From the NCBI GenBank assembly GCA_027731085.1, contig JAQCDG010000001.1:69179-105975 (forward strand): a stretch of DNA of 36,797 nt, read 5' to 3'. This DNA comes from Actinomycetota bacterium (GTDB taxonomy: Bacteria > Actinomycetota > Acidimicrobiia > Acidimicrobiales > Ilumatobacteraceae). The position numbers and the translations under genes were made by a program. The notes under the pieces are model-generated. The model was not told the origin of the DNA, made no database searches, and saw only the letters and a list, made by a program, of their open reading frames with translations. Below, in pieces: positions 14,284-34,882 of this stretch; positions within the stretch are counted from its first letter, which is position 1; every line of letters begins with the position of its first letter.

Positions 14284-14774
14284 AATTGTGCTTTCGATCG
14301 AGATGCTTTAACGGCAGACATGATTAACATCGCAGCACCAATTGTGACCGCCGAATCAGCGATGTTAAACACCGGAAACCACTGCAAGTCGATGAAGTCA
14401 ACCACCGCGCCGGCCAACCATTTATCGCCACGAAACAAGCGATCGGCCACATTTCCGAGTGCGCCGCCAATCAACATTGAAGTACCAACCAGAGACAGTT
14501 GCGAAGTCGCTTTGCGCAAACTAAACCACAGCCACAGTGCGACACCAACCGCAAGCAGTCCGATCAGGCGTCCTGCACCTTGCCCTTGAGAAAAGGCCAT
14601 GCCCGAGTTGAAAACTAAATTGAATCGCAATGTCCAGAACAGATCGATCGTGCGACCATCGTCCAGCGAATTGAGCACCCAGTTTTTAGTCGCCTGATCG
14701 GCAACCAAAACTGCAGCAATAATAATTTTGGGTGTTGAGCCAATCGCCCTAGTAAGAACCAATGCCACCTGCAC
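14280..14774 (-). CDS. lspA: Signal peptidase II
   Basis: DQATKNWVL, NSGMAFSQGQG, GGALGNVADRLFRGDKWLAGAVVDFIDLQWFPVFNIADSAVTIG (catalytic Asp pair). Start is uncertain because the ORF overlaps the dksA-like gene by 26 nt. Confidence 0.95.
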   Translation of the reverse strand: MQVALVLTRAIGSTPKIIIAAVLVADQATKNWVLNSLDDGRTIDLFWTLRFNLVFNSGMAFSQGQGAGRLIGLLAVGVALWLWFSLRKATSQLSLVGTSMLIGGALGNVADRLFRGDKWLAGAVVDFIDLQWFPVFNIADSAVTIGAAMLIMSAVKASRSKAQL

Positions 14775-15783
14775 GCTCGACTACTAATTCAGTTGTCCAT
14801 GGAATCGCCTTTAATCGCTCACGCGGAATCGGCAACCCAGAACGCGCTGAGTAGCCATAATCGCCGGTCTCAAGTCGCTTGAGAGCTTCATCAATTTCTT
14901 CGACTGTCTGGCGTGCTGAAGCTGAAAGAGTCAGGTCGCGCTCACGCTCGACAACCATGGTGTCACCCTCGCCACCTTCGTCATCAAACTGCACATCACC
15001 CATCTCTGAGTTTTCGACGATCGCATTTGCTGCGCTCTCAAGTTGGTCGGCTTGACCGAGGAGATTGCGTCGTTCAACAGTCAACAATTCACGTTGTGAG
15101 GTCAAGAACTCGATATTGAACTCTTTGGTCGGCGTTATGCCATCTTGCATCACACCTTTAATAATTGGTGGCTTTGGTGGCGCAACTGGTTTACGGTTGG
15201 CTTCGATTTCTGCCAGACGAGCCGCTTCGCGCGCGGCGATCTTGGCCGCTTTCACGGCTTCGCGCGCCTGCTTTTCTTCTAAACGCTGCTTTTCTTTAGC
15301 GACCTTCAGCGCCAATCGCTCGGCGATTTGTTGGGCTTTGAGCTTTGCGCGTTCTTTGGCTAAACGCTGTGCTTCTTTTTGCTTTTCTTTTTGCAAACGC
15401 TTGCGTTCGGCTAGCGCCCGACGTTTGTCGAGTTCTTTTTGCTTCTTGAGCGCTTTGATCTGGGCGAGCTTTTTTTTCAGTTCGAGATTCTTCTTGAAAG
15501 CCAGTTTTTTCTTGAGTTCAAGCTTCTTCTTGAATTCGAGCTTCTTTTTGAGTTCAAGCTTCTTTTTGAGTTCGAGTTTCTTTTTGAGCTCAAGCTTCTT
15601 TTTGAGCTCAAGCTTCTTTTTCAGTTCGAGCTTCTTCTTAAGTTCGAGCTTCTTCTTGAAAGCCAGTTTTTTCTTGAGATCGAGCTTCTTTTTGAGAGCG
15701 AGCCTCTTTTTGAGCTCAACTTTTTTACGCACTGCAAGTTTCTTTTTAGCCATTGCCTGCTTTTTCTTCTTAGCAGATGCCAT
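14749..15783 (-). CDS. TraR/DksA-like protein with long Lys/Leu hexapeptide-repeat N-terminus; zinc-finger cysteines absent
   Basis: C-terminal RQTVEEIDEALKRLETGDYGYSARSGLPIPRERLKAIPWTTELV resembles DksA/TraR C-terminal; N-terminal (ELKKKL)n. ATG at 15783 has a GAGAGGTG SD upstream; ORF track starts at an overlapping GTG (15789). Confidence 0.85.
   Translation of the reverse strand: MASAKKKKQAMAKKKLAVRKKVELKKRLALKKKLDLKKKLAFKKKLELKKKLELKKKLELKKKLELKKKLELKKKLELKKKLEFKKKLELKKKLAFKKNLELKKKLAQIKALKKQKELDKRRALAERKRLQKEKQKEAQRLAKERAKLKAQQIAERLALKVAKEKQRLEEKQAREAVKAAKIAAREAARLAEIEANRKPVAPPKPPIIKGVMQDGITPTKEFNIEFLTSQRELLTVERRNLLGQADQLESAANAIVENSEMGDVQFDDEGGEGDTMVVERERDLTLSASARQTVEEIDEALKRLETGDYGYSARSGLPIPRERLKAIPWTTELVVERAGGIGSY
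15466..15753 (-). repeat. Coding tandem repeat, 18-bp unit (GAGCTCAAAAAGAAGCTT-like), about 16 hexapeptide units
   Basis: MAKKKL AVRKKV ELKKRL ALKKKL DLKKKL AFKKKL (ELKKKL)x6 EFKKKL ELKKKL AFKKNL ELKKKL read from the translation. Confidence 0.93.
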
Positions 15784-15831
15784 TTTCACCTCTCAAGTGG
15801 TTCAATTTTAGAACGCACCAATTTGACCGCG

Positions 15832-19205: not shown

Positions 19206-19736
19206 CTAACCGCGCGTTATGCGTGCGCCAAAAGGCTTCATCATAAAAACACCATTGCTCATTTTCTCCATGGTGCCGTTATTGGCGTAGCAAACACCAC
19301 TTGCAAAATCGATGATTCGACGCATTGTCTTCGGGTCGGTTGATTGCACATTGATGATCACTGGGTTGCCTTCTTTGAAGCGATCGGCAATTTCTTTTGC
19401 ATCTTCGTAACTTGTCGGACGAATCGTCACGGGGTCACTGGCCGGCAACACCGGACGAGCCACAGCTTCTGTGCGACGCCCCGCAACTGGTCGAACAGTC
19501 ACACCTGAATCATGTTGTGCCTGTTGCGTACGCATGCCCCTTGAATGCGGCTCAACATTCGCTCGATCGTCGTAATCGTCGTAACCTTCATCTGAATCAT
19601 CATAAGTTTCTGCTCGCTGACGACCGCGACTCGGCATGCGACGATCGCGCTCAACTGCGACTGATTCGTCGTAATCGTCATAGGCCTCGTCTGGCCCCAA
19701 ACCCAAGTAATCCATTGCTCGGCGAAACATTGACAT
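19206..19736 (-). CDS. sepF: Cell division protein SepF
   Basis: MFRRAMDYLGLGPDE, acidic Asp/Tyr linker, ADRFKEGNPVIINVQSTDPKTMRRIIDFASGVCYANNGTMEKMSNGVFMMKP. Confidence 0.95.
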   Translation of the reverse strand: MSMFRRAMDYLGLGPDEAYDDYDESVAVERDRRMPSRGRQRAETYDDSDEGYDDYDDRANVEPHSRGMRTQQAQHDSGVTVRPVAGRRTEAVARPVLPASDPVTIRPTSYEDAKEIADRFKEGNPVIINVQSTDPKTMRRIIDFASGVCYANNGTMEKMSNGVFMMKPFGARITRG

Positions 19737-19780
19737 ATTTAAAGGATAGTTCAGAATTCTGCTACAAATACGGACTCTGA

Positions 19781-20452
19781 CTAGTCGCGAGGCCCAAAAA
19801 GTGCCGAGCCGACTCGAATCATCGTCGCGCCTTCGGCGACGGCAATTTCAAGATCGCCAGTCATACCCATGCTGCACTGCTTTAGACCAAGATCATCGGC
19901 AAGTTTGCGCGTAGTTCGAAACGCCAGGCGCGCTTGTTGTGGCTCGTTATTCGTTGGCCCGATTGTCATTAGGCCTAATACATCGAGACCCTTTGTTGTG
20001 GCGAGATCGAGAAGTTTGTCCACTTCGGCTGGTAAACAACCCCCCTTTTCAGACTCACCAGTGGCGTTGACTTGTAACAGAATTTGTGGCTTGACGCCCG
20101 TGTTTTGTTTGACGCAACGCTTGGCGATTTCATTGATCAACTCGGGGCGATCAACAGTTTGCCAAACATCAACCATCTCGGCGATCAACTTAACTTTGTT
20201 GGTTTGTAGTCGACCGATGAAGTGCACCGGCAACCGCTTCGTGATTGGCAGTTCGCGTACCTTGGCAATCAGCTCTTGGGCATAATTCTCACCGACACCA
20301 TCGCAACCTGCATCAAACGCCGCAACTATCGCTGCAACATCAAAAGTCTTTGTGACGGCGATGAGTTTTACTTCGTTGCCGCCTGCCGCGACTATGCGCT
20401 GACGAATTTGCGCGACGCGCAACCCAACTTGCGATGCATCAACTGCCGTCAT
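19781..20452 (-). CDS. YggS family PLP-binding protein (PLPBP)
   Basis: LIAVTKTF, VGENYAQELIAKV, VHFIGRLQTNKVK, LGLKQCSMGMTGDLEIAVAEGATMIRVGSALFG. Start ATG at 20452 preferred (GGTGG upstream); ORF track begins 20470. Confidence 0.93.
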   Translation of the reverse strand: MTAVDASQVGLRVAQIRQRIVAAGGNEVKLIAVTKTFDVAAIVAAFDAGCDGVGENYAQELIAKVRELPITKRLPVHFIGRLQTNKVKLIAEMVDVWQTVDRPELINEIAKRCVKQNTGVKPQILLQVNATGESEKGGCLPAEVDKLLDLATTKGLDVLGLMTIGPTNNEPQQARLAFRTTRKLADDLGLKQCSMGMTGDLEIAVAEGATMIRVGSALFGPRD

Positions 20453-20473
20453 GTCGCCACCGACATGCAAACT

Positions 20474-21592
20474 TTATTTCAGAAATGAAGGAAGATCGTC
20501 GTCATCATCGGCACCACTTAGTGGATCAGATGTGCCGCCGAACAAATCTTTCAATCGTCCGCCCTTCGAGTCGGGGCGAACCGTGCCAGATGTTGCCGTG
20601 CTTCGACCGTCACCGCGGGTGGCGGTGCGTTGCGCCGCACTGTCCCAGCGTTCGAAACCTGCTGCTACGACCGTCACGCGAACTTCATCGTTGACATCGT
20701 CGTCAATAACCAAGCCATGAATGATGTTTGCATCTTGATGTGCCACACCTCGCACGATCTCCATCGCGTTGGTCACTTCGAACAAGCCCACGTCTGATGG
20801 TCCGGTGATGTTCACAACTATGCCTCGGGCACCTTCGAGTGAAGCCTCGAGCAACGGCGAATTGATCGCCGCGTTTGCAGCCAAGACTGCTCGATTGTCA
20901 CCGCTTGCAGCACCAGTGCCCATCAATGCAGTGCCGGCATTTGCCAAAACGGTTTTGACGTCAGCAAAGTCTGTATTGATCAAACCTGGTGTGGTGATCA
21001 ACCCTGTGATGCCAGAAACGCCCTGGACCAAAACTTCGTCAGCTTTTTTGAACGCATCCAGCATGCTCGTCTTGTCGGTCGAAATTGCCAGCAATCGCTC
21101 GTTCGGAATAACGACAAGCGTGTCTACTTTTTCTTTAAGTGCAGCGATGCCGGCATCTGCCTGCACCGAACGACGACGACCCTCAAATGCAAACGGTCGC
21201 GTAACAATCGCAACTGTCAAAGCACCTTCGGCCTTGGCGATCTCAGCAATCACTGGTGCGGCACCTGTGCCAGTGCCACCACCCTCACCTGCAGTAATGA
21301 ACACCATGTCTGCGCCTGCAACAACTTCTTGAATCTCATCGCGATGCTGTTCAGCGGCTGCGCGGCCAACTTCTGGGTCGGCACCAGCACCGAGACCACG
21401 AGTTAATTCACGACCGATGTCGATCTTGACACTCGCATCACTCAACAACAGTGCTTGTGCGTCGGTATTGATCGCCACAAATTCGACGCCACGCATGCCT
21501 GACTCCATCATGCGATTGATGGCGTTCACACCGCCACCACCAACACCGATGACTTTGATAACTGCCAAATAATTTTGTGGTTGACCGACCAT
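20474..21592 (-). CDS. ftsZ: Cell division protein FtsZ
   Basis: [42 protein letters not shown]-terminal acidic peptide [11 protein letters not shown]. Confidence 0.98.
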
Positions 21593-21715
21593 TTAGAATT
21601 AACCCCCGCTGCTTGCGCTTGTTGTGCTCACTTGTTGTGAGTTCAGATATTCTGCCACACCAACACCTCAGCACCAAACATCATCTCGACGTTCAGGCAA
21701 GTTGAGAGAAAGTCT

Positions 21716-23821
21716 CTACTTCGACTTTACAGTTGGTGTTCGTGGGTCGGTTAAGTCGATCGAGATTATTTGCTTCGCGTCTTGTCGCCGCAACAACACG
21801 AGCAACGAAATCAACTTATTCTGCAGATCAACCGGCGGCCCAAAATTGATCAGGGTCCCCGTGCGCAAGGTCATGACTAATTGATTTGGGCCACCCACAC
21901 CGACATTCAAGACTCGCTCATTCAATTCATCTGGCAACCCCGCTGCGAGTTGAGCCGCGGCTTTATATACGGTGCCGGCGCTTGCGCCCGGCGCAAGGTT
22001 TGGCCCAACCCCTGTGATCTGCAAATACTGAGTTGGTTGACCAGTTTCAACAGCCAAAACACGACCTTGCGGATCAACGACTCGCGACCGGTTATCTACT
22101 CCGATATAGAAAGCCACAGGTTTGCGCTCGACAATCTCGATGACAAGTCTTGACGGAAAGAATGACTTGATCCGCACAGACTCAACCCACGGATCTCCTT
22201 CAAGTCGCCGCTCGGCGGCTCGCGTATTAACAGTCAAAATTGATTTACCGTCTAAAGACTTTTCTACGGCGATCAACAAGTCAGCACTGACATACTTAGC
22301 ACCTTCGATTTCGATCTTGCGTACGCCGATTATCGGTGATGCTAAAACGATCAGTACCAGGGCCACCGCGCCAATCACTGAACCAGCGGCGACCAACAAC
22401 CTACGGCGGTTTGACGCAAGACTTCTGATGACATCCTTGCGTCGATCCTCGAGGCGTGAATCGCGAATGATGTTGCTCGGGTCAGAAGTTGGAGCAACAT
22501 TGACAGAACTTGTCAACTCATCAATCGGGTGATCAGAGTCGACAGGTAATCGAAGATCTTCATCGACGATTACAATTCGGCCGTTATTTGTTTTAAGTGC
22601 TAGCGAAGTGTTCGTCGTTGTGGAAGATTCATCATTTATTTTGTCAGGCGATTTTGTAAAGTCATTCGGCTGCACGACTCGCAAATTGCCGATGGGTGTT
22701 GCGTCACCTTCAAAGGCATCTTTAAGTTCTGCCAAGACTTCATCTGAAAGTTGTTCGGCAAGAGATGGCACCGGAATCGACAAGTCGGTGTTGTTTGCCG
22801 AGCCAAATGCAGATTCAAGTTGCGTGTTGCGCGAGGTCTCAGTTTGATGAAGCGCACCTGCTTCGTGAGAAACAGCCGACGAAAAACCAACCAAGCGAAT
22901 TTCGCTACGAAGATCTATGCCGTGCGACTCAGTCACGCGTTGGCGAATGAATGTCATCAACTCGACGACATCGTCGGCATCACCGTCTTCGTCGGCTTGA
23001 ATAAAATTCGCGTGCTTTTCAGAAACCACAGCAGTGCCGATGCGATAACCGCGCAAACCGAGACCATCAATTAAGGCACCGGCCGACGCGGCACCCGAAA
23101 CTGGGTTGACGAAAACCGAACCGGCATTTTGACCACCTGGCTGATTTTCGCGCCGCCATTTAACAATTTCGGCTAATCGCGATTCACCTTCGACTTTGTC
23201 GCCCCATGAAAGTCGTAGAGTCGCCGCAACAACAATGTGTTGATCGTTCAAATCAGAACCACGAAATCGCAAACCCAAATTTGCGGCCGAAACATTGGCT
23301 TCAATACCTCTGTCAAGATGAAACAGTCGCACACTCAACAAAGACGCAATCATGTCTGAGCCGTGACCACCGGCGTTCATTCGAACGGCCCCGCCGATCG
23401 AACCTGGTACGCCAACTGCCCATTCGAAACCGCGCAGACTGGCAGCGACACTTTGACGGGCTACAACTGGTAACGACGCCATTGCGCCCACCAAAAGAAT
23501 TGGATCTTGAGAAGTGCTCGGAAGACTTATTTGTTCGGCGAATGGTCCTAATGCGATCGCCAAACCGCGAAAGCCGCTCTTGCTGATCAACATGTTGCTG
23601 CCACGACCGAGCATTAAGACTGGGATTTTTACTTTTGCCAACGCTCGCGATGCGGCGTGCAAATCGTCGACACTCATTGCGCGCATGAACAGCGATGCAG
23701 ACCCGCCAACCCGATATGTCGTATATGGGCCTATTGGTTCGTCTCTAGTGATGCGATCGCCCAGCAAAGATGCGAACCGGTTCAAATCTTTTTCGCTTGG
23801 ATGTGCAAATTCTGAAATCAA
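21716..23821 (-). CDS. MurB-FtsQ fusion: UDP-N-acetylenolpyruvoylglucosamine reductase plus TM plus FtsQ-type POTRA domain
   Basis: MurB residues ~1-313: TTYRVGGSA, LGRGSNMLIS, GVPGSIGGAVRMNAGG, NAGSVFVNPVSG; linker ~314-472; TM RRRLLVAAGSVIGAVALVLIVLASPIIGV; POTRA VRKIEIEGAKYVSADLLIAVE... PSRLVIEIVERKPVAFY. Confidence 0.93.
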   Translation of the reverse strand: MISEFAHPSEKDLNRFASLLGDRITRDEPIGPYTTYRVGGSASLFMRAMSVDDLHAASRALAKVKIPVLMLGRGSNMLISKSGFRGLAIALGPFAEQISLPSTSQDPILLVGAMASLPVVARQSVAASLRGFEWAVGVPGSIGGAVRMNAGGHGSDMIASLLSVRLFHLDRGIEANVSAANLGLRFRGSDLNDQHIVVAATLRLSWGDKVEGESRLAEIVKWRRENQPGGQNAGSVFVNPVSGAASAGALIDGLGLRGYRIGTAVVSEKHANFIQADEDGDADDVVELMTFIRQRVTESHGIDLRSEIRLVGFSSAVSHEAGALHQTETSRNTQLESAFGSANNTDLSIPVPSLAEQLSDEVLAELKDAFEGDATPIGNLRVVQPNDFTKSPDKINDESSTTTNTSLALKTNNGRIVIVDEDLRLPVDSDHPIDELTSSVNVAPTSDPSNIIRDSRLEDRRKDVIRSLASNRRRLLVAAGSVIGAVALVLIVLASPIIGVRKIEIEGAKYVSADLLIAVEKSLDGKSILTVNTRAAERRLEGDPWVESVRIKSFFPSRLVIEIVERKPVAFYIGVDNRSRVVDPQGRVLAVETGQPTQYLQITGVGPNLAPGASAGTVYKAAAQLAAGLPDELNERVLNVGVGGPNQLVMTLRTGTLINFGPPVDLQNKLISLLVLLRRQDAKQIISIDLTDPRTPTVKSK

Positions 23822-26355
23822 CTTGATTTACCTTGTCGAAGCGAAATCACTTCACGGGGCAATGTGGCGATGTCGCCACAGCCCATCGAGATGCATAGGT
23901 CGCCAGATTTAATTTCATCTGCCAAGAACTCTACGAGATATGCGCGGTTTGGTTGATACACGACATGACATTCGGGGTGCGATTTAAGAATCGCGTCAAC
24001 AACGAGTTGACCTGTCACGCCAGCGATTGGTTGCGTGCCAGAAGAATAGATGTCAGTCACTATGACTAGATCGGCGGCGACAAACGCGTCGGCATATAAA
24101 TGTGAAATCTCAGACATGCGATTAAACCTGTTGGGCTGAAACACCGCTACGACACGAGACCATTTGTCTGACTCGTCTCGCACACCCGAAAGCACCGCGG
24201 CAATCTCATTGGGCAGGTGGGCATAGTCATCGACGAATGTTGCGCCGCTATCGACACCTTGGACATCGAAACGCCGAGCTACCCCACCGAATCTGCTTAG
24301 TGCTTCAGCGGCTTGATCAAACTGAACACCAAACTGCATCGACATAGCGATCGCGCCGAGCGCATTGCTGACATTGTGCATGCCGCGTTGTGGCAGGTTG
24401 ATGCGACCGAGTTCAATTTTTTGATTATCGAGATTTCGAAATACTTTAAATGATGCGGCCGCATCTTTGAAATGAACTTCGGTAGCGACAAAATCGGCCG
24501 ATAAACGATCATTGACCGTATAAGTGATCGACTTGTGTGCTTGGGCGATTGATGCGCAGACAGGGTCGTCTAGACACAGAACACGTGGCCCGGAGATATT
24601 GCCGACGTAGTCAAAGAAACTTTGCTCTATTGCTGCCTGAGTCTTGAAGTGATCCAGGTGGTCGATATCGACATTCGTCAAGATAGTTGCAGCGAGTGCC
24701 AACTGTGAATGTGTGCCGTCACTTTCGTCGGCTTCGACAATGAATAAGTCGCCGTTAGTCCATGCTGCACCACGCTTGAACGAAACAACATCTCCGCCAA
24801 TCAGATAACTCGGTTTCTTGTCCGCGCCAAATAAAATAGTTGCCAACATTGACGAAGTTGTTGTCTTGCCGTGCGTGCCGGCGACACCAATACTTGTGGC
24901 ACATTGACAAATGCCGGCCAGTGTCTCGGCCCGCGACAAAACTTGAATGCCTAGTTTTCTTGCGTGCTGATATTCAATGTTTGACGCTGCGATCGCCGGC
25001 GAACCAGTAACAAAGTCGCAACCTCGCACGGCTTCTGGGTCGTGCCCGATATTGATCTTGATGCCAATAGCTGTGAGTCGTGCAATCAAATCTGACTGCC
25101 TAATGTCACTGCCTGAAACTTGATGTCCCATCTCGGCCAGCACCGTTGCAACTGCCGACATACCAGGACCGCCAACGCCCACGATATGTATTCGTTGCGG
25201 TTTTCGAAGATCCAGAACTGCATTTTTCTGAGATACAACACTCAAGATCAAACCAGCGAGTGTCGTTTCGCGATGTTGTGTGCCTGCCTTGCGCGCGGCT
25301 GATGCGAGAAGTTCAAGTTTGGCTTGATCATCAACCAAAGCAATAACTTTGTTCGCCATTTGTGCGTTAGTAATTGTCTTTTCGTCGACAACAATTGCTC
25401 CACCACAGTCACCGAGCCAATTTGCATTTGCGGTTTGATGATCTTCTGCCGCGCCACGCCATGGTACGAGAACGCTAGCGACGCCAATTGTCGATACTTC
25501 GGCTACCGTACTCGCACCCGCACGAGCAACGACCAGATCAGAAGCGCTATAGACATCTTGCATCGCCACGGTTGACTCAAGTCGTTTGTAAATGATTTTT
25601 GCATCGTCATTGATGACCGGCAGGTCATCATTTAAATATCGCTGGCCGGTCAAATGAATTATGCAAAGGTCACTGCGTTGTTGATTACTTTCGACGATCG
25701 TTCGTGCGATGACATTAAGTTTTGCCGAACCAAGTGACCCACCCGTGATGCAAACGACTTTTCGATCGCTCGGCACCGACAACCGCTCTCGTGCCTGGGC
25801 TCGCGTAGAAGTCACATCCAGATTTCGTAACACTCGGCGTACCGGCGCACCTGTGAGTGTCGCATTTTTCAATTGCGACGGCAGATACGCCACTGCGCTC
25901 GCCGCAGCACTTCGCGCTTGAAGTCTTGTCGCTAAACCTGGTTGTCGGTCATAAGAAACAGTCACCACGGGTATGTTCAATTTCTTTGCCGCGCGAGTTG
26001 CCGGCACGCTCACATAACCGCCGACCGAAACGACGACCGCTGGTTGCAAAGCCGCCAATAATTTCTGGGCGTGTTGCGTGGCGTTTTGCAAGACTTTGAG
26101 AGTTCGAATGTTATGTTGCATGGCGCTAGCCGACAAGCCACGGCGAAAACCTTGTACGGTCAGCAACGAGAGCGAAATGCCCGCGCTTGGCACGAGAGTT
26201 GTTTCGATGCCGTTGGTTGATCCGACGAAATGAAGTTGATCTTTATTGACGCCCGAATCTTGCATCAACTCTGCGATTGCGAGTGCTGGAATTACATGGC
26301 CACTGGTTCCCCCGCCGGTGATGACGGCAAAGACAGGGTGGCTGGTGACGGTCAA
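23818..26355 (-). CDS. MurG-MurC fusion: lipid II GlcNAc-transferase domain plus UDP-MurNAc:L-alanine ligase domain
   Basis: MurG residues ~1-375: ITGGGTSGHVIPALAIAEL, VSVGGYVSVPA, CITGGSLGSAKLN, VVARAGASTVAEV, AAEDHQTANANWL; MurC residues ~384-845: RIHIVGVGGPGMSAVA, GVAGTHGKTTTSSML, VEADESDGTH, VDDYAHLPNEIAAVL. One uninterrupted ORF. Confidence 0.94.
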   Translation of the reverse strand: MTVTSHPVFAVITGGGTSGHVIPALAIAELMQDSGVNKDQLHFVGSTNGIETTLVPSAGISLSLLTVQGFRRGLSASAMQHNIRTLKVLQNATQHAQKLLAALQPAVVVSVGGYVSVPATRAAKKLNIPVVTVSYDRQPGLATRLQARSAAASAVAYLPSQLKNATLTGAPVRRVLRNLDVTSTRAQARERLSVPSDRKVVCITGGSLGSAKLNVIARTIVESNQQRSDLCIIHLTGQRYLNDDLPVINDDAKIIYKRLESTVAMQDVYSASDLVVARAGASTVAEVSTIGVASVLVPWRGAAEDHQTANANWLGDCGGAIVVDEKTITNAQMANKVIALVDDQAKLELLASAARKAGTQHRETTLAGLILSVVSQKNAVLDLRKPQRIHIVGVGGPGMSAVATVLAEMGHQVSGSDIRQSDLIARLTAIGIKINIGHDPEAVRGCDFVTGSPAIAASNIEYQHARKLGIQVLSRAETLAGICQCATSIGVAGTHGKTTTSSMLATILFGADKKPSYLIGGDVVSFKRGAAWTNGDLFIVEADESDGTHSQLALAATILTNVDIDHLDHFKTQAAIEQSFFDYVGNISGPRVLCLDDPVCASIAQAHKSITYTVNDRLSADFVATEVHFKDAAASFKVFRNLDNQKIELGRINLPQRGMHNVSNALGAIAMSMQFGVQFDQAAEALSRFGGVARRFDVQGVDSGATFVDDYAHLPNEIAAVLSGVRDESDKWSRVVAVFQPNRFNRMSEISHLYADAFVAADLVIVTDIYSSGTQPIAGVTGQLVVDAILKSHPECHVVYQPNRAYLVEFLADEIKSGDLCISMGCGDIATLPREVISLRQGKSS

Positions 26356-26378
26356 GAGGTTCTACTTGTGAAGATTGC

Positions 26379-27587
26379 TCACTTCATATTACGCGCGACG
26401 TTCATCAACAGCCCTGCTGCCGACATGCACACCAATAGCGAGCTTCCGCCGTATGAAATAAGCGGCAGTGTTAAACCAGTCACGGGCATCGAACCAGTGA
26501 CTCCACCGATGTTGATGATTGCTTGGATTGCGAACCACATCGTGACGCCGCCTGCGAGAAGTGCGCCGAATCTTTCTTCGGCGCCCAAGGCTGCGCGCAG
26601 ACCGAATAATACGAGCGTCAAGAAACCCCCAATCACAACTGTTACACCAATTAATCCCATCTCTTCGGCGATCGTCGAAAAAATAAAGTCGCTGTGCGCT
26701 AGTGGTACATAGCCCCACTTGCCTGTACCTGCGCCGACACCGACACCAGAAATGCCGCCGTTCGAAATTGAAAGTATCGATTGCCAAACTTGATAACCAA
26801 ACGAACCTTTGGTCTCATCCAAGTTCAAGAATGCTGTCCAACGATTTCGACGCGATGATGTGATCAGCGTAAAAAATAATGCTGCCGCAACGCTCGAACC
26901 TGCAATGGCGTTAACAATTCGCATCGGAATACCCGCCATGCACATCACTGCCAAAACGATGCATGTCATAACAATGGCGCCGCCGAGGTCGCGCTGTATC
27001 AGGCACAGAAATACAGATGCCAACCAAGCAACAACAACTGGTCGTGTTGTGCGATTGACATCAGTGACTTCTTTTTGACGTCGCCCCAGCAAGTTTGCGC
27101 AATAGACCAAGAGTGCCATCTTCAAAAATTCAGATGGCTGAAAACCGACAGGCCCGATTGCCACCCATGCTCTGGCGCCGTTGGTACTGACGCCAATGTT
27201 CGGTGCGAATGGCAAGAACATCAAACCGAAAGCAAAAATCAAAACAGGAAACACAAACCGACGCATCAACGAATATGGAAAGCGAAAGAAAAATGCCATC
27301 CCTAATCCGCCCACTGATGCCCACATCAACTGCTTGAAGAACATCGTCCAGGGTGACATGCCGCGATTCAACGCGACGATCGAAGACGACGACATCACCA
27401 TTACGAGACCAAATGTCACCAGTGTGAGTACGGTGAAAAAAATCATGAAGAACGTCGTGTTGGCAGGTTTCTGCGCAATACGACGCGACGACAACAAGCC
27501 ACCGCGATCAAGAACAGCGCGACGACGCTGAGCCAGAGTCATCGTGCGATTTGAGATTGCAGTCGAAGTTGTAGTTGTCGTGCTCAT
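26379..27587 (-). CDS. ftsW: FtsW/RodA/SpoVE family lipid II polymerase (FtsW)
   Basis: Multi-TM; GMVMSSSSIVALNRG-like start, GPVGFQPSEFLKMALLVY, DLGGAIVM, SDFIFSTIAEEMGLIG, LTLPLISYGGSSLL. Confidence 0.95.
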   Translation of the reverse strand: MSTTTTTSTAISNRTMTLAQRRRAVLDRGGLLSSRRIAQKPANTTFFMIFFTVLTLVTFGLVMVMSSSSIVALNRGMSPWTMFFKQLMWASVGGLGMAFFFRFPYSLMRRFVFPVLIFAFGLMFLPFAPNIGVSTNGARAWVAIGPVGFQPSEFLKMALLVYCANLLGRRQKEVTDVNRTTRPVVVAWLASVFLCLIQRDLGGAIVMTCIVLAVMCMAGIPMRIVNAIAGSSVAAALFFTLITSSRRNRWTAFLNLDETKGSFGYQVWQSILSISNGGISGVGVGAGTGKWGYVPLAHSDFIFSTIAEEMGLIGVTVVIGGFLTLVLFGLRAALGAEERFGALLAGGVTMWFAIQAIINIGGVTGSMPVTGLTLPLISYGGSSLLVCMSAAGLLMNVARNMK

Positions 27588-27594
27588 GATTCCC

Positions 27595-28944
27595 CTATTT
27601 TCTGTTTTTTTCTTGTTTGGTGTTGATCAGTGCATTGACTTCATTCTTGAAATCAATGCCCCGCTCGCCGTAGTTCTTGTACCAGTCGTAACTCGTGCAA
27701 CCTGGTGAAAGCAGCACGACATCGCCTGCTGCGGCGAGTTGATCGGCACATCTGACCGCATCGTGCATTGAATCTGCCAGACGAACTTCGCACACGCCAG
27801 AAAATGCTGCCGCGATTTCTTGGGCAGCATTGCCGATCGCAACGACAGCCTTGATGCTTTCTGAATGGCTTGCCATCTCGGTGAGATCTAAACCTTTGTT
27901 CTTGCCACCAGCGATCAGAACAATCGCGTTAAACGACTTCAACGCGACGCTCGTTGCATGCGGACTAGTTGCCTTTGAGTCGTTGAACCACTGCACTCCT
28001 GCACTTTCGGCGACGAACTCAATTCGATGCGGCGCGTTGACGAAGCTTCGCAAAGCTTGTGCCACTTGATCACAGTTGGCAAGACCAGATTCGATAGTGA
28101 TTGCCGCAGCAGCCAAAGCATTGGTCACATCGTGCGGCAAACTTCGGGCCATTTCGCTGCGATGCAAAATCTCACCATCTGGGCAAGTCAACACGCCGTT
28201 GGCTGCGTGATAGTCGCCTGAGTCTTGACCGAAGCTGACGACGCGGGCACCAGACTTCGTGGCAAATTTAGTGATCGACTCATCGCGCACGGGCACGACT
28301 GCAACATCTGAAGGCAACAACTGGGCCCAAATTTTTGCTTTTGCCGACGTATATGTTTCAAGCGAAGAATGCCAATCTAAATGATCAGGCGCGAGATTTA
28401 ACCACACTGATGCTTTGGTGCGAAAAGTTTGTGTCAGTGCCAAACGAAAACTTGAACACTCGACGGCGAACGCTTGGGCGTCGCTTCGCAAGGCAGCGAT
28501 CAACGGCGTTTCGGTGTTGCCAACAGCCAATGACTTAATACCTGCAGAATTCAACATCTCGGCAGCCATCAAAGTCGTCGTGGTTTTGCCGTCGGTGCCG
28601 GTTACTGCGACCATCGGTCGCGATGACGACGACTGCTGTTCAAATTGATAAGCGAGTTCGATTTCTGACATCACTGGCTTTTGCAGTCTTCGTGAAGATT
28701 CAAACAACTGATGACCCTCAGCGATACCTGGTGATGGCACCACGCGGTCAGATTGTTGCAGTAGATCTCTCAGTTCAGAAACAGTCGGTTTGAACGAAAT
28801 CTTGCTCTTAAAGCTGAGCGCAAATTCTGAGTTGCTATCAGTTTGCAGATCGTCGACCAGAATGACTTTTTCACCGCGCGAAATAAGTTCAGTAGCCACT
28901 GCTTGCCCTGCGACAGCCAGACCATAAACAAGAGTAGTAGTCAT
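27595..28944 (-). CDS. murD: UDP-N-acetylmuramoylalanine--D-glutamate ligase
   Basis: VYGLAVAGQAVATELISRG, VAVTGTDGKTTTTLMAAEML, NLAPDHLDWH, FNDSKATSPHAT, LLSPGCTSYDWYKNYGERGIDF. Confidence 0.95.
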   Translation of the reverse strand: MTTTLVYGLAVAGQAVATELISRGEKVILVDDLQTDSNSEFALSFKSKISFKPTVSELRDLLQQSDRVVPSPGIAEGHQLFESSRRLQKPVMSEIELAYQFEQQSSSSRPMVAVTGTDGKTTTTLMAAEMLNSAGIKSLAVGNTETPLIAALRSDAQAFAVECSSFRLALTQTFRTKASVWLNLAPDHLDWHSSLETYTSAKAKIWAQLLPSDVAVVPVRDESITKFATKSGARVVSFGQDSGDYHAANGVLTCPDGEILHRSEMARSLPHDVTNALAAAAITIESGLANCDQVAQALRSFVNAPHRIEFVAESAGVQWFNDSKATSPHATSVALKSFNAIVLIAGGKNKGLDLTEMASHSESIKAVVAIGNAAQEIAAAFSGVCEVRLADSMHDAVRCADQLAAAGDVVLLSPGCTSYDWYKNYGERGIDFKNEVNALINTKQEKNRK

Positions 28945-28946
28945 TG

Positions 28947-30011
28947 TCAGCGCCGCATTTCGGAGAGACTTTGCAAATTAGTGAAGTCGGCAATGAACAT
29001 GGCCACGGCAGTTGAGACACAGATCGCAGAGATAATCCAAAAACGAATGATCACAGTTGTCTCTGGCCAGCCACTTTGTTCGAAGTGATGATGAATCGGT
29101 GAGTTTTTAAACAAACGCTTTTTTCGCCCTGACGCTTTGAACACGCCCATCTGCACCGCGACCGACCCTGCTTCAATCACATTGATGCCACAGATAATTG
29201 GCAGTAATAAGTGAGTGTTGGTTGTGACTGCGAGCAGACCGAGTGCGGTGCCAAGCCCGAGAGCGCCGACATCGCCCATGAAGATTCGCGCCGGCGCGGC
29301 ATTCCACCAGAGAAAACCACCACAAGCGCCAGCCAACGATGCAGCGAGCACCGCAAGATCGAGTGGGTTGACCACGTCGCCGTAAAACTGCGGATTTCTA
29401 AACGCCCAGTATGCGATAACGGTGAACGCTATGAAACCAAACGATGCAGAACCCGCAGCCAAACCGTCGAGACCGTCTGTGACATTGACTGCGTTTGAAG
29501 TGCCCCAAACCATTAACGCCGTCCAGATAACAAATAGTGGCCAAGTAAAAGTGATACCAGGCAAATCGGCGCGGGTGAACGAAAGGGTTTCGCTGACGCC
29601 AGTCGCCGCCGTCAACCACCAGGTCAAGGCGATGCAAATTGCAAAAGTAATGTAGCCCTTTTTCTTCCAGAAAAGTCCACGATTGTGTTGGCGCTGAACT
29701 TTGAGAAAGTCATCCAGAAAGCCGACAAAGCCCAATACAAAAACTGCCGCCCAAATGATCATCGACTGATCAGAAAATGGCAACCCGTCTCTGAAGTGGG
29801 CGATAAACCAACCAAACGCCGCCGAAAACAAAATTGCAATTCCACCCATTGTCGGCGTGCCTTGCTTTTTTATGTGTTGCACCGGGCCACGGTCTTCAGC
29901 ACCAAGAATTGGTTGACCTTTGCCCAGGCGCTTGAACACCGAAATTAAAACGCGAGTGCCAATGAGTGACGCGATCATCGCCACTGCGGCGGCTGTCAAA
30001 ATTGCAATCAC
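28947..30011 (-). CDS. mraY: Phospho-N-acetylmuramoyl-pentapeptide transferase
   Basis: GPVQHIKKQGTPTMGGIAIL, NAVNVTDGLDGLAAG, FMGDVGALGLG, SPIHHHFEQSGWPETTVIIRFWI. Confidence 0.97.
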   Translation of the reverse strand: MIAILTAAAVAMIASLIGTRVLISVFKRLGKGQPILGAEDRGPVQHIKKQGTPTMGGIAILFSAAFGWFIAHFRDGLPFSDQSMIIWAAVFVLGFVGFLDDFLKVQRQHNRGLFWKKKGYITFAICIALTWWLTAATGVSETLSFTRADLPGITFTWPLFVIWTALMVWGTSNAVNVTDGLDGLAAGSASFGFIAFTVIAYWAFRNPQFYGDVVNPLDLAVLAASLAGACGGFLWWNAAPARIFMGDVGALGLGTALGLLAVTTNTHLLLPIICGINVIEAGSVAVQMGVFKASGRKKRLFKNSPIHHHFEQSGWPETTVIIRFWIISAICVSTAVAMFIADFTNLQSLSEMRR

Positions 30012-31498
30012 GACGCGACCCTCAACAATTCGCGAGAAACTTCGACGTCACTGAAGGGCAGTTCGTTGGCGCCGATCGTTTGGGTTGCCTCATGGCCTTT
30101 GCCCGCGATGATCACGATGTCCCCAGATTTCGCCGATGCAAAGGCAGCAGCGATCGCGTGGCGACGATCTAAGTCAACAATCACTTTGCTTGAATCATTC
30201 AAGTCTTTTGAAGCCCCTTGTAAAATTTCGTTGGCGATTGTTAGGGCATCTTCATGGCGGGGATTATCTGAGGTGATGTAAACCGAATCTGCAAACTTCA
30301 CCGCAACCGCCCCCATCTTAGGTCGTTTCAAGTGATCGCGACCGCCACCACAGCCAAACACGAGAATCACTCTGTCGTTGTTGCTGACAATTTGTCGCGC
30401 AGCGATCAATACATTTTGCAATGCCTCAGGCGTGTGCGCATAGTCGACTACGACTGAAAAACTTTGACCGACGCTCACAGATTCAAATCTTCCCGGAACT
30501 GCGCTTGCAGCAGCCAAACCTTTAGCGATGTCACCAAGAGTGACACCAAGTTTGGCTGCTGCAGTCGCGGCAGCTAGCGCGTTCATTAAATTGAATTGTC
30601 CGCCCATTTGTATTTTGAATTTTTGGTCTTGCCAAACGAACGAGACTTTTGAGGCGTCTGCGCGAATTTCTCGTACATCTTCGACGCCAAAAGATTCGCA
30701 CTGCATGTCTTTGTCCTTCGCAACTGAATCAATCAAAAGAGAGCCGTGAACATCGTCTCGGTTGATGATGCACACATTTGTGAACTGTTTCGTGAATAGC
30801 CTGGCTTTGGCGCCAAAATATTCTTCGGTTGATTTGTGAAAATCTAAATGATCTTGACCAAGATTTGTGAATAGGGCGACTTTGAACGATGTGCCTTCAA
30901 CGCGTCGCAAAGTAAGCGCATGCGATGAAACTTCCATTACGACTGCTTGACAACCGCGATCCAGTTCTTCAGCCAAGAGTCGTTGCAAGTCTGTCGATTC
31001 TGGTGTTGTGCGTACGCCTGTAAGTGTGCCGATCACTGAGGTCGACCAGCCGTGTTGATGCAAGATTGCTGCCAGCATATGGGCTGTCGTCGTTTTGCCG
31101 TTTGTGCCAGTTATGCCGATGACATTTAGTTTTTGGCTTGGTCGATCAAACAATTCGGCAGCAAGAAACCCCATCGCTGAGCGCACATCAGCGACGACAA
31201 CCTGTGAAATATCAATTTCAAGTCGCCGCTCAACAAGCAATGCAACCGCACCATTGGACACGGCAACTTTGGCAAAATCATGGCCGTCGACATTTTCGCC
31301 GACGACACAACAAAAGATTGCGCCACTAGAAACTTTTGACGAGTCGTGAGTGATGTTCGAGACTTTTACTGTTGTGCTGCCAATTATTTGAGTGACAATA
31401 ACCTCAGATGTACTTGCTAACAATTCATCTAACTGGCGTTCTAATCTGACCGACATCTCAGTGGCTCGGTCCAAATTCTGCTGGGCGCGAACCGACAC
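30008..31498 (-). CDS. murE: UDP-MurNAc-L-Ala-D-Glu--2,6-diaminopimelate ligase
   Basis: VIGITGTNGKTTTAHML, VMEVSSHAL, NLGQDHLDFH, VVDYAHTPEAL, TSDNPRHEDA (DNPR, mDAP-type). Alternative ATG at 31456. Confidence 0.95.
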   Translation of the reverse strand: MSVRAQQNLDRATEMSVRLERQLDELLASTSEVIVTQIIGSTTVKVSNITHDSSKVSSGAIFCCVVGENVDGHDFAKVAVSNGAVALLVERRLEIDISQVVVADVRSAMGFLAAELFDRPSQKLNVIGITGTNGKTTTAHMLAAILHQHGWSTSVIGTLTGVRTTPESTDLQRLLAEELDRGCQAVVMEVSSHALTLRRVEGTSFKVALFTNLGQDHLDFHKSTEEYFGAKARLFTKQFTNVCIINRDDVHGSLLIDSVAKDKDMQCESFGVEDVREIRADASKVSFVWQDQKFKIQMGGQFNLMNALAAATAAAKLGVTLGDIAKGLAAASAVPGRFESVSVGQSFSVVVDYAHTPEALQNVLIAARQIVSNNDRVILVFGCGGGRDHLKRPKMGAVAVKFADSVYITSDNPRHEDALTIANEILQGASKDLNDSSKVIVDLDRRHAIAAAFASAKSGDIVIIAGKGHEATQTIGANELPFSDVEVSRELLRVAS

Positions 31499-33380
31499 AA
31501 CCCATGTCGTCGCCCTCGGGGCGAATGTTCAACTCGTTAATCAGCACCTGGCCAATGCGTGCAAAAACAGGCGCAGCCGCGGTGCCACCAAATCGGTCTC
31601 GAGAATACGGATCAGGCTCGTCGATTGAAACAAGCACGGTCATGCGTGGATTATTCGCCGGCAGAAAACCGACGAATGATGCAAAGTAAGTTCTCGCGCC
31701 CTCGTCGTTCATATATGTGCCGTTTTCTTGCAACTTATAGGCCGTACCGGTCTTGCCGGCGACACTTAATCCCGGCAATTTTGCAAGAGTGCCGGTGCCG
31801 TGGCAAACAACATCGGTCATTAGCGAAGCCATGGTCTGTGCGGTTGACTCTGAAATCACCTGGTGGGATGGCGATTCAGGAGACGCGGTCACCACGCCGT
31901 TTTTGTCGGTTGTCTTGAACACCAACTTGGGCGCAACATACACACCCTTGTTGGCAACTGTATTCACCGCTGCGGCGAGTTGCAGCGCCGTTGATGTGTA
32001 TCCATAACCGTAGGCAAATGTAATTTTCTCGGTGCCTTGCCATTTAGACGCGGGTCGTAACGCCCCACGAGATTCACCCGGATATTCAACAGCAGTCTTG
32101 ACACCAAAACCAAAAAGCTTTAGATATTCGTGGTTCTTTTTTGTATCGAGCGTTCGCGAGACAAGCACCGTACCAAGGTTTGAAGAGTCGACGAAAATTT
32201 TTCGAACCGACATTTCTTCAAGACCGTGCGGGTATGCGTCAGTAACTTTGTATTCCCATTGGGTTCCTTTGTCGAACATTTGATAGCCGGGAACGCTAAA
32301 TGTTGAACCAATGTTGACCGAACCTTCGTTGATTGCCGCAGCGATGCTAAAAACTTTGGCAACTGAACCTGGCTCGTTTGCTTCGACCGAGGAGAAGTTG
32401 CCAGATTGGCTCGAGTAACTTCTGTCTTTGTTGCGACGTATATTTGATATCGCATAAATCTCACCTGTTTTCGTGTCCATCACGATCGCAGTGCCGCCAC
32501 GGGCGCCAAGTCGCTCGACTTGTTGTTTGACGATGCCGTCAACTTGAAACTGAATCGTGCGATCAATGGTCGTCGTCAATTGACCACCAGACTGCGGTTC
32601 GAGCACTTCACCTGATCCTGCAGCGATTGATTTACCACTGCTATTTACTTCTCTAACGATTCGGCCATCTACCCCAGTAAGCAAATCGTGATACTTCAAC
32701 TCAAGGCCTGAGATACCGACGCCATCAACATCGGTGCGACCGACAACAGCCAGCAAACTCTCACTCGAAAGAGCACGGCCCGATTCACGATATGAAGAAA
32801 CACCCTTCAACCCGAGCGCCAAAATTGCATCGGCTACTTCTTTGTCGACCTGGCGGGCGATATAAACAAAACTCGAAGTTTTATTCTGCAACTTGGTCGC
32901 AAGTTCAACTTCGGCTTGCGGGTCAAGCTGCAACACTCCGGCCACTACATGAGCCACACCAACCGGGTCAACCACAGAACGAGGATCAGCAAAAACAGTT
33001 TGAGTCGGCACAGGAAGCGCCAACTCTCTACCGTTACGATCTAAAATTGAGCCGCGCTCGGCGCGAATTACTCGCACGCGGGTTCGTTGTGAAACACTCG
33101 CCTCGCGATAGTCGCTGGCCCAAATTGTTTGCAAAAGTGCGACTCGCACGCCAAGTAGCGAGAGCAAAATTGCGACAACCATGAACATCGAGACAATGCG
33201 CTTGTGCATGTTGCCACCGCGCAGGTCTTTTGTAAAAAAATCCCTGCTATTCGCAGTTACTGACCACGCTCGATACGAGATCTCGGAGTTGCGCACACGG
33301 TTTGTATCAATGTGTCGCCCACCACGTGACTGACCCCGCGTGCGAGAGCCAGTGTTATTGCGGTCAGCAATAGTGCTCAT
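31458..33380 (-). CDS. ftsI: Penicillin-binding protein 2/3, FtsI-like transpeptidase
   Basis: N-terminal TM; RGSILDRNGRELA, EPGSVAKVF (SxxK), DSSNLGTV (SxN), VAGKTGTA (KTG). Confidence 0.92.
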   Translation of the reverse strand: MSTIADRNNTGSRTRGQSRGGRHIDTNRVRNSEISYRAWSVTANSRDFFTKDLRGGNMHKRIVSMFMVVAILLSLLGVRVALLQTIWASDYREASVSQRTRVRVIRAERGSILDRNGRELALPVPTQTVFADPRSVVDPVGVAHVVAGVLQLDPQAEVELATKLQNKTSSFVYIARQVDKEVADAILALGLKGVSSYRESGRALSSESLLAVVGRTDVDGVGISGLELKYHDLLTGVDGRIVREVNSSGKSIAAGSGEVLEPQSGGQLTTTIDRTIQFQVDGIVKQQVERLGARGGTAIVMDTKTGEIYAISNIRRNKDRSYSSQSGNFSSVEANEPGSVAKVFSIAAAINEGSVNIGSTFSVPGYQMFDKGTQWEYKVTDAYPHGLEEMSVRKIFVDSSNLGTVLVSRTLDTKKNHEYLKLFGFGVKTAVEYPGESRGALRPASKWQGTEKITFAYGYGYTSTALQLAAAVNTVANKGVYVAPKLVFKTTDKNGVVTASPESPSHQVISESTAQTMASLMTDVVCHGTGTLAKLPGLSVAGKTGTAYKLQENGTYMNDEGARTYFASFVGFLPANNPRMTVLVSIDEPDPYSRDRFGGTAAAPVFARIGQVLINELNIRPEGDDMGCVGSRPAEFGPSH

Positions 33381-33907
33381 GGCGTCACGCTTTTCGTTGT
33401 TTTGGAAACCAAATTTTCCAGCATCGGTGGATTCAAAATTTCTTTATCCATAGCGCCGGTGGCAGCAATAACACTCGCCACTACATCAGCCGGAATTTCT
33501 TCAAATTGTGCCGATAGTCCCTGCGACATTCCGAGCATCATCGCCTGCTCGCGCAAATAATCAGGCGCCCGAAGTTCGGCGCGCCGCTGGCGAAGTTCGT
33601 CATAGTGCAAACGAGCGAGTCGCACATCGGTGGTGACTTTGTCTAGACGCAATTGTTGCTCGGCGATGACGGTTTGAAAGACAACGATCAAAGTCAACAC
33701 GGCGGCGATGCCGATAAGCACTGAGGTCACTTTTGAGAACTTTTGGACTCGAATAGTTTCGACAACCCGCAAATCAGGGCGCTCACCTAGTTCAAATTGT
33801 TCTTGCGAATTTGCTCGACCCTGAGAATTGCGAACTGGTCGAACTACCGAACCGGCTGGTCGACGAAGTCGAACTGGGGCTGGTCGAGTTGCAAGTGCAG
33901 TTGCCAT
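33377..33907 (-). CDS. FtsL-like bitopic division protein
   Basis: Short N-terminal cytosolic region, one TM (VTSVLIGIAAVLTLIVVFQTVI), coiled coil (RLDKVTTDVRLARLHYDELRQRRAEL), position between rsmH and ftsI. Confidence 0.75.
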   Translation of the reverse strand: MATALATRPAPVRLRRPAGSVVRPVRNSQGRANSQEQFELGERPDLRVVETIRVQKFSKVTSVLIGIAAVLTLIVVFQTVIAEQQLRLDKVTTDVRLARLHYDELRQRRAELRAPDYLREQAMMLGMSQGLSAQFEEIPADVVASVIAATGAMDKEILNPPMLENLVSKTTKSVTP

Positions 33908-34882
33908 TTAATTACCAACTTCAACAAGTGTTTTTTCAATTACACGCATTCGCGCTGATTTAGCGCGACGATTAAGTGTCTGCTCTTTGCTTGACGGATA
34001 CTTTGGTGCTCGAACACGGCGAGTGCGGCGCACGCCCGATTGTGATTCGTGAACATACGGCGATGCGTGGGTCGATTCGTTGGCGTCGCGCTCAGAATCA
34101 GAGAACACGCGCTTGACGATGCGATTTTCACCCGAGTGATATGTCAGCACGGCGACTCGACCGCCAGATTTGGTCGCGTCGATTGCGATCTGTAACGCAC
34201 GCTCAAGAATCTCTAGTTCTTTGTTGACTTCAATTCGAATTGCTTGAAAAGTTCGCTTAGCTGGATGCCCACCAGTTCGACGCGCCGGAGCAGGAATTGC
34301 CGCGACTATCACTTCGGCAAGTTGTGTAGTCGTAGTAATCGGTCGAGCAGCCACGATTGCCTTGGCGATTCGACGGGCAAACTTCTCATCGGCGTTGTCG
34401 GCAATCAGTCTCGACAGTTCTGACTCGTCATAATTATTGACGACTTCAGCGGCACTCAGTTGACTGCGCTGATCCATACGCATGTCGAGAGGACCTTCGT
34501 GACGATACGAAAAGCCGCGTTCAGCAACATCTAACTGCGGCGAAGAAACACCTAAGTCAAACAATGCACCTGAAATCTCATTAATCGATAGTTCTTCGAG
34601 AACTTCATCAAGCGAATCGAATCGCACACGACGAACCGTGAGACGACCCTGCAGACTTGAGTCTTCGGCGATCAGTCTTTCGGCGTTGGCGATCGCATCG
34701 GCGTCTTGATCAAGTCCGAGGATTTGCAAGTTCGGATATGCATTGAGTATCGCCACGGCATGACCGCCAAGGCCAAATGTTGCATCAACGACGACGCCTT
34801 CTGGCACCGAAGCGAAGCACTCAACGATTTCATCGATCATTACTGGCAGATGCGAACTGACGTGTGAATTTTGATTTGTCAT
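33908..34882 (-). CDS. rsmH: 16S rRNA m4C1402 methyltransferase RsmH (MraW)
   Basis: HLPVMIDEIVE, VVDATFGLGGHAVAIL, GLDQDADAI, LFDLGVSSPQLDVAERGFSYRHEGPLDMRMD, TFQAIRIEVNKELE. Confidence 0.96.
   Translation of the reverse strand: MTNQNSHVSSHLPVMIDEIVECFASVPEGVVVDATFGLGGHAVAILNAYPNLQILGLDQDADAIANAERLIAEDSSLQGRLTVRRVRFDSLDEVLEELSINEISGALFDLGVSSPQLDVAERGFSYRHEGPLDMRMDQRSQLSAAEVVNNYDESELSRLIADNADEKFARRIAKAIVAARPITTTTQLAEVIVAAIPAPARRTGGHPAKRTFQAIRIEVNKELEILERALQIAIDATKSGGRVAVLTYHSGENRIVKRVFSDSERDANESTHASPYVHESQSGVRRTRRVRAPKYPSSKEQTLNRRAKSARMRVIEKTLVEVGN

Follow-up and report, generated by a model that had tools for sequence, protein, structure and literature searches.

A MurG-MurC fusion gene throughout a genus of Ilumatobacteraceae, with unfused and triple-fused relatives

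MurG and MurC are essential cell-wall enzymes that are separate proteins in most bacteria. Whether the Mur enzymes form a physical complex is debated, and natural fusions are a main genomic argument for it. We analysed a window of 36,797 nucleotides (by which we mean the whole stretch of DNA under study), part of contig 38 of a 1.53 Mb metagenome-assembled genome (MAG) of the family Ilumatobacteraceae, in which one open reading frame (ORF) was predicted to encode both enzymes. The locus raises the question of whether the two are indeed made there as a single polypeptide, how they came to be joined, and what the join might do. The features on which the answer rests are the following.

19206-34882, minus strand: division/cell-wall (dcw) cluster, in the order mraW-like, ftsL-like, ftsI, murE, mraY, murD, ftsW, murG-murC, murB-ftsQ, ftsZ, YggS-like, SepF-like (ftsI, murE, murD, ftsW and murB-ftsQ by Pfam/NCBIfam, the others by reading translations)
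26379-27587, minus strand: ftsW, a separate gene upstream, 23 bp before the start of the fusion
23818-26355, minus strand: murG-murC fusion gene, 845 aa, TTG start, stop included
25222-26355, minus strand: MurG half, residues 1-378, two GT28 domains and a C-terminal helix (PF03033, PF04101)
25195-25221, minus strand: linker, residues 379-387 (about 9, unstructured), between the last MurG helix and the first MurC strand
23821-25194, minus strand: MurC half, residues 388-845, UDP-MurNAc:L-alanine ligase (TIGR01082, motifs, Foldseek)
21716-23821, minus strand: murB-ftsQ fusion, 701 aa, the next gene, its start overlapping the murC stop by 4 nt

The original prediction had placed an 845-aa ORF at 23818-26355 without naming a strand; translation recovered it on the minus strand, the plus strand having many stops across the same interval. 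It had also described an apparently complete MurG followed by a complete MurC, that is, the lipid II synthase paired with the first Mur ligase. A Pfam scan bears this out, with all matches above the gathering score: Glyco_transf_28 (PF03033, residues 11-152, 6e-23) and Glyco_tran_28_C (PF04101, 200-354, 2.5e-28), GT28 domains that span the full length of the MurG half, are followed by Mur_ligase (PF01225, 388-483), Mur_ligase_M (PF08245, 491-671) and Mur_ligase_C (PF02875, 694-827). Pfam and NCBIfam together place MurG at about residues 9-370 and MurC at about 388-837, and the two-enzyme reading holds. The boundary, expected near nt 25206 with a linker of about 10 residues, was found there, the last MurG helix ending at residue 378 and the first MurC strand starting at 388. 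AlphaFold, run on an 83-row alignment, predicted both domains to be well folded (mean pLDDT 93.4), with a dip to 79 in block 371-380. The pTM was 0.69, so that the relative placement of the two halves is not fixed.

The MurC half matches NCBIfam TIGR01082 (MurC) with 411 bits (cut-off 335) over residues 388-836 of 845. Its catalytic motifs are intact in the window (GTHGKTTT, EADESD, DHLDH, HNVSN, RRFD and DDYAH) and are conserved in nearly all of 147 loci, and Foldseek aligned it with H. influenzae MurC (1p3d, TMt 0.91) and E. coli MurC (2f00, TMt 0.87).

For the MurG half, Foldseek found P. aeruginosa MurG (3s2u, TMt 0.88). TIGR01133, the NCBIfam model for MurG, matches it over its full length at 228 bits, against a cut-off of 250 that none of the 29 genomes of the genus reaches; no other full-length MurG candidate was found in any of them. 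Alignment to 1f0k, 3s2u and 7d1i placed three MurG motifs in the fusion, TGGGTSGH, GGSLGS and AGASTVAE (consensus GGGTxGH, GGSxG and GAxTxxE); the first is the glycine-rich loop with its His near the N-terminus, and the second belongs to the nucleotide side. The HEQNxxxG motif, which we take to have a role near the acceptor site, was not found in the fusion's MurG, where SYDRQPG stands instead at residues 134-140. In 116 of 123 sequences of the family SYDxxPG or a near variant replaces HEQN, whether MurG is fused or separate, and the replacement is a family trait, not an effect of fusion. Most of the genomes sampled from other orders of the phylum keep HEQN. Its absence weakens the residue-level equivalence of this MurG with that of E. 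coli. Because the half is the sole MurG candidate and the dcw cluster is otherwise complete, we infer that it is a divergent MurG that is still active, a reading based on its fold, its position and the lack of another copy. In three loci from other families of the order (L208, L216 and L139) the HMM matches MurG in two pieces that lie apart in the same frame, which suggests that MurG carries a large insertion there.

We searched 151 genomes of the family, 29 of them in the window's genus, in all six frames and found a full-length open fusion throughout the genus, at 60-96% identity. When MurG, MurC, MurB, FtsQ and FtsW domains were mapped onto the stop-to-stop frames of 61 loci, MurG and MurC fell in one frame in the window and in 24 of the 24 further loci fetched from the genus; in another congener (G128) the fusion runs without a stop in a match at a contig edge. 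Both domains share a frame in 26 of 26 judgeable genomes, three of the 29 standing outside the count (two with contig breaks, one unmapped). The nearest named relative, MsH-30jul19-148, is 96% identical over residues 1-845, followed by Baikal-G1 (88%) and the LBMAG acIV bin (78%). These relatives, taken from GTDB contigs, are MAGs filed by their submitters as Acidimicrobium, Ilumatobacteraceae, acIV and similar. The original prediction was right to point to Acidimicrobiia, and the lineage of the window reads as freshwater acIV. Three high-GC relatives (G007, G012 and G008) also have open frames that resemble a fusion in length only; domain mapping assigned their two enzymes to separate frames.

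An artefact of assembly, a frameshift or a missed stop might be suspected in a source that is a MAG in 160 contigs, 86.8% complete and with 6.5% contamination. A missed stop or frameshift at the junction is excluded by the 26 genomes of the genus in which the two domains share a frame, and these genomes also answer the concern, raised with the original prediction, that the fusion might be absent from close relatives. Since these records come from different projects and linker lengths vary by whole codons only, we consider the chance of an artefact negligible. As to individual records, the fused gene of L088 (genome G060) is broken by a frame change inside MurC and not at the junction, probably through an error in sequencing or assembly. 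In L095 the junction contains Ns, which makes this locus weak evidence for its own junction.

Second copies would render the fusion dispensable. Neither a second full-length MurG (29 genomes) nor a second full-length MurB was found in the genus, where every strong MurG match either belongs to the fused frame or sits at the edge of a contig. A PF08245 search of the window's genome revealed no second MurC, the only matches being the fusion, MurD, MurE and one 439-aa frame that we read as FolC-like. Dispensability through second copies was hence rejected and, as no other full-length copies were found, both halves of the fusion are presumably essential.

Unfused relatives indicate how the genes may have been joined. 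Where the sister lineages are unfused, murG and murC for the most part share an ATGA overlap or lie almost end to end. The ATGA overlap, a translational-coupling arrangement, is typical of the nearest unfused clade (L168, L170, L187 and L123; GCGATGAGC in L123). MurC of the sister clade starts with a short leader ending xFDLSxPxRIHV. This leader recurs in fused linkers right after the MurG tail (LDLRKPQRIHI in the window), which implies that joining the genes did away with the overlap while adding little or no sequence. We propose that two translationally coupled neighbours lost their short stop/start overlap, which would have fused them with both enzymes whole and left a linker made of MurG's own tail and MurC's own N-terminus, with little or nothing inserted. 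Since the sister-clade overlap lies in a different frame, an indel would also have been needed in the window's genus, and simple loss of the stop codon is not favoured there. Other sister genera have murG and murC in one frame with a single stop between them, so that losing it would be enough; stop loss is a plausible route in lineages whose genes share a frame.

Linkers in the genus are 15 to 34 residues long, their differences being whole codons only, and conservation in block 361-380, at the junction, is among the lowest of the fusion (0.41, versus 0.6-0.9 over most of MurC), as a tether would lead one to expect. The polypeptide could in principle be split in vivo into MurG and MurC, by an internal translation start or by proteolysis, and some genomes do have GTG, TTG or ATG codons in frame near the junction. 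However, no Shine-Dalgarno-like motif was found upstream of the window's in-frame TTG and GTG near the junction, and such a motif is present in only 2 of 22 genus loci, at a GTG inside MurC's first strand; the fused genes have also lost the overlap that couples translation in the sister lineages. Moreover, MurG has no stop before MurC and the fused product must therefore be made. We regard splitting as very improbable.

We built a quick IQ-TREE tree from 112 loci, with MurG and MurC concatenated (a fast search with some long branches, so that change counts are approximate), and counted on it seven changes for the MurG-MurC fusion, two for MurC-MurB and one for MurB-FtsQ; FastTree gave 5, 2 and 1. 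Placing all fused rows in one clade was rejected (p-AU 1.3e-69), as was placing the within-family fused rows in one clade (AU p=7.6e-7), and the AU tests rule out a single common origin of all MurG-MurC fusions. The fusion is polyphyletic among the sampled lineages. Beyond the family, three other families of the order (L135, L136 and L137) have open MurG-MurC fusions, as does, outside the order, at least one genome (L229) among the matches listed from a phylum-wide sample of 397 genomes.

Such recurrence might be no more than compaction, adjacent and overlapping dcw genes in small streamlined genomes fusing by chance and with no functional gain, tolerated since the MurG C-terminus and the MurC N-terminus are both free. 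Indeed, only immediate neighbours join, and they do so in several combinations (MurG-MurC, MurC-MurB, MurG-MurC-MurB and MurB-FtsQ); the junction is variable and poorly conserved, the parent genes overlap, and in several unfused relatives a stop alone separates the two genes in frame. The fused lineages seen in the order's other families have genome sizes of 1.5-2.2 Mb, where the median is 3.2 Mb (P is about 0.005 that three random members of the order all fall in this small class, with the threshold set post hoc). It fits less readily that the fusion has been kept, with no loss, in 22 of 22 distinct genus loci, and that joining recurred at MurG|MurC but is absent at FtsW|MurG in all mapped loci. 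Un-fusing is hard, though, and both observations are for that reason compatible with neutrality. Chance fusion is a contender, if short of an even chance.

Alternatively, selection may have held MurC at the site of MurG, MraY and the divisome, so that, following the Mur-complex (scaffold) model, stem peptides would be made in concentrated form close to where lipid II is assembled. In B. pertussis MurG has been described as scaffolding other Mur enzymes, and it binds Mur ligases (PMC6420597); the fusion recurs independently, as the within-family AU test indicates, and MurB is joined to the membrane protein FtsQ in the same operon, which leaves two consecutive enzymes, MurB and MurC, each linked to a protein of division or of the membrane. 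Against this, MurG and MurC catalyse non-consecutive reactions, the linker is not conserved, and AlphaFold predicts no fixed interface. Selected tethering is a tentative possibility, short of an even chance.

The reading that we favour, with a probability of roughly 0.75, is that the fusion is a working bifunctional MurG and MurC, born of overlap loss, which holds MurC 1:1 beside MurG. Weighing against it are the pTM of 0.69, the MurG score under the NCBIfam cut-off and the missing HEQN, although nearly the whole family lacks that motif. The N-terminal MurG would act at the membrane, transferring GlcNAc from UDP-GlcNAc onto lipid I, and the C-terminal MurC would add L-alanine to UDP-MurNAc with ATP; both activities are presumed to be retained because these are the only full-length copies found. 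Fusion fixes synthesis at 1:1 and tethers MurC next to MurG, probably also near MraY and the membrane. As MurG binds the membrane peripherally, the fusion protein may be located there, as the original prediction had it. The product of MurC goes to MurD and the substrate of MurG comes from MraY, hence no direct transfer between the two sites is possible, and catalytic channelling between them was rejected on this pathway logic, the reactions being non-consecutive. This is what makes MurG-MurC an instructive case, since channelling between its own sites is ruled out. Any benefit of the fusion is putative.

The next gene of the operon encodes a second fusion. MurB (about 22-316) is followed by a linker of about 139 residues with conserved islands, a TM segment (about 477-495) and a POTRA domain (500-566). 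The gene joins an FAD reductase of the cytosol to FtsQ, a division protein of the membrane. On the 112-locus tree this fusion arose once, in a clade made of the window's genus and sister genera, and MurB lies in a frame of 659-770 aa in 27 of the 28 genus genomes with a MurB match; the remaining one has a fragment at a contig edge. If functional, MurB-FtsQ would couple a precursor enzyme of the cytosol to the divisome. Two separate lineages also have MurG-MurC-MurB triple fusions, of about 1160-1210 aa.

L023:517-4008, L025:475-4026 and L026:478-4032: triple fusions of genus g2 (same genes in L104-L106)
L021:1426-5061: triple fusion of g25 (same gene in L110)

Triples are present in L159 and L162 as well, and three other g2 species have MurC-MurB fused with MurG apart. 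FtsW is separate from MurG in every locus mapped. It is conceivable, if unlikely, that the family progressively welds ftsW-murG-murC-murB-ftsQ and that the welds mark contacts of a cytoplasmic precursor-making complex, with MurB on FtsQ and MurC on MurG; were this true, UDP-MurNAc and its first amino acid would be made at the division site. Regarding the rest of the cluster, murF is absent between murE and mraY (window 30008-30011) and from the window's incomplete MAG; loss of MurF is ruled out by its presence elsewhere, above the cut-off, in 22 of the 29 genus genomes. Outside the cluster, a 346-aa ORF (14749-15789, minus strand) carries a long lysine/leucine-rich repeat (LKKKLE / LAFKKK), after which it reads like a DksA/TraR-type protein.

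One family thus contains the same two enzymes unfused, fused and triple-fused, with junctions resolved to the base, and the effect of tethering is therefore testable with natural pairs. The original prediction knew of no characterised MurG-MurC enzyme. On that point it stands, as no characterised enzyme and no biochemistry were found in the open-access literature; the pair itself, however, had already been reported, as a murG/murC fusion in C. gilvus in 2016 (PMC4929429 Figure 3), and MurG-MurC fusions were mentioned again in 2019 together with the MurG scaffold model (PMC6420597). The C. gilvus case, compared here by description, has the same two enzymes with non-consecutive reactions, from adjacent dcw genes fused in an actinobacterium as a single murG-then-murC ORF (an order read from 'murG/murC'). 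C. gilvus lies outside Acidimicrobiales, whereas here the fusion is genus-wide in freshwater Acidimicrobiales and accompanied by MurB-FtsQ, of which we found no report in the open-access literature. In K. flavida another actinomycete dcw fusion, ftsW/murG, joins a neighbour to MurG's other side (PMC4929429 Figure 3), whereas FtsW is separate in all loci mapped here. MurE-MurF of B. pertussis likewise fuses neighbouring dcw Mur genes, into a flexible protein that interacts with MurG, but it joins consecutive steps and has been purified and characterised (PMC6420597). The MurC-Ddl of chlamydiae (NCBIfam NF011171) is, like ours, a bifunctional MurC whose partner does not act in the next step; unlike ours, it has MurC at the N-terminus and Ddl as partner, and NF011171 matches only the MurC part of the window's fusion (280 bits, cut-off 1015). 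MurB/MurC of Verrucomicrobium spinosum is a Mur fusion with MurC that is lineage-wide in its order; its partner is different, and it complements E. coli murB and murC mutants (PMC4803751), while MurG-MurC is known from sequence. The MurG-MurC-MurB triples of the relatives combine the MurG-MurC pairing with that of V. spinosum. The MurG-MurC pair is hence already known, and what is new is its polyphyly, the triples and the single-origin MurB-FtsQ, the last two being the less familiar parts.
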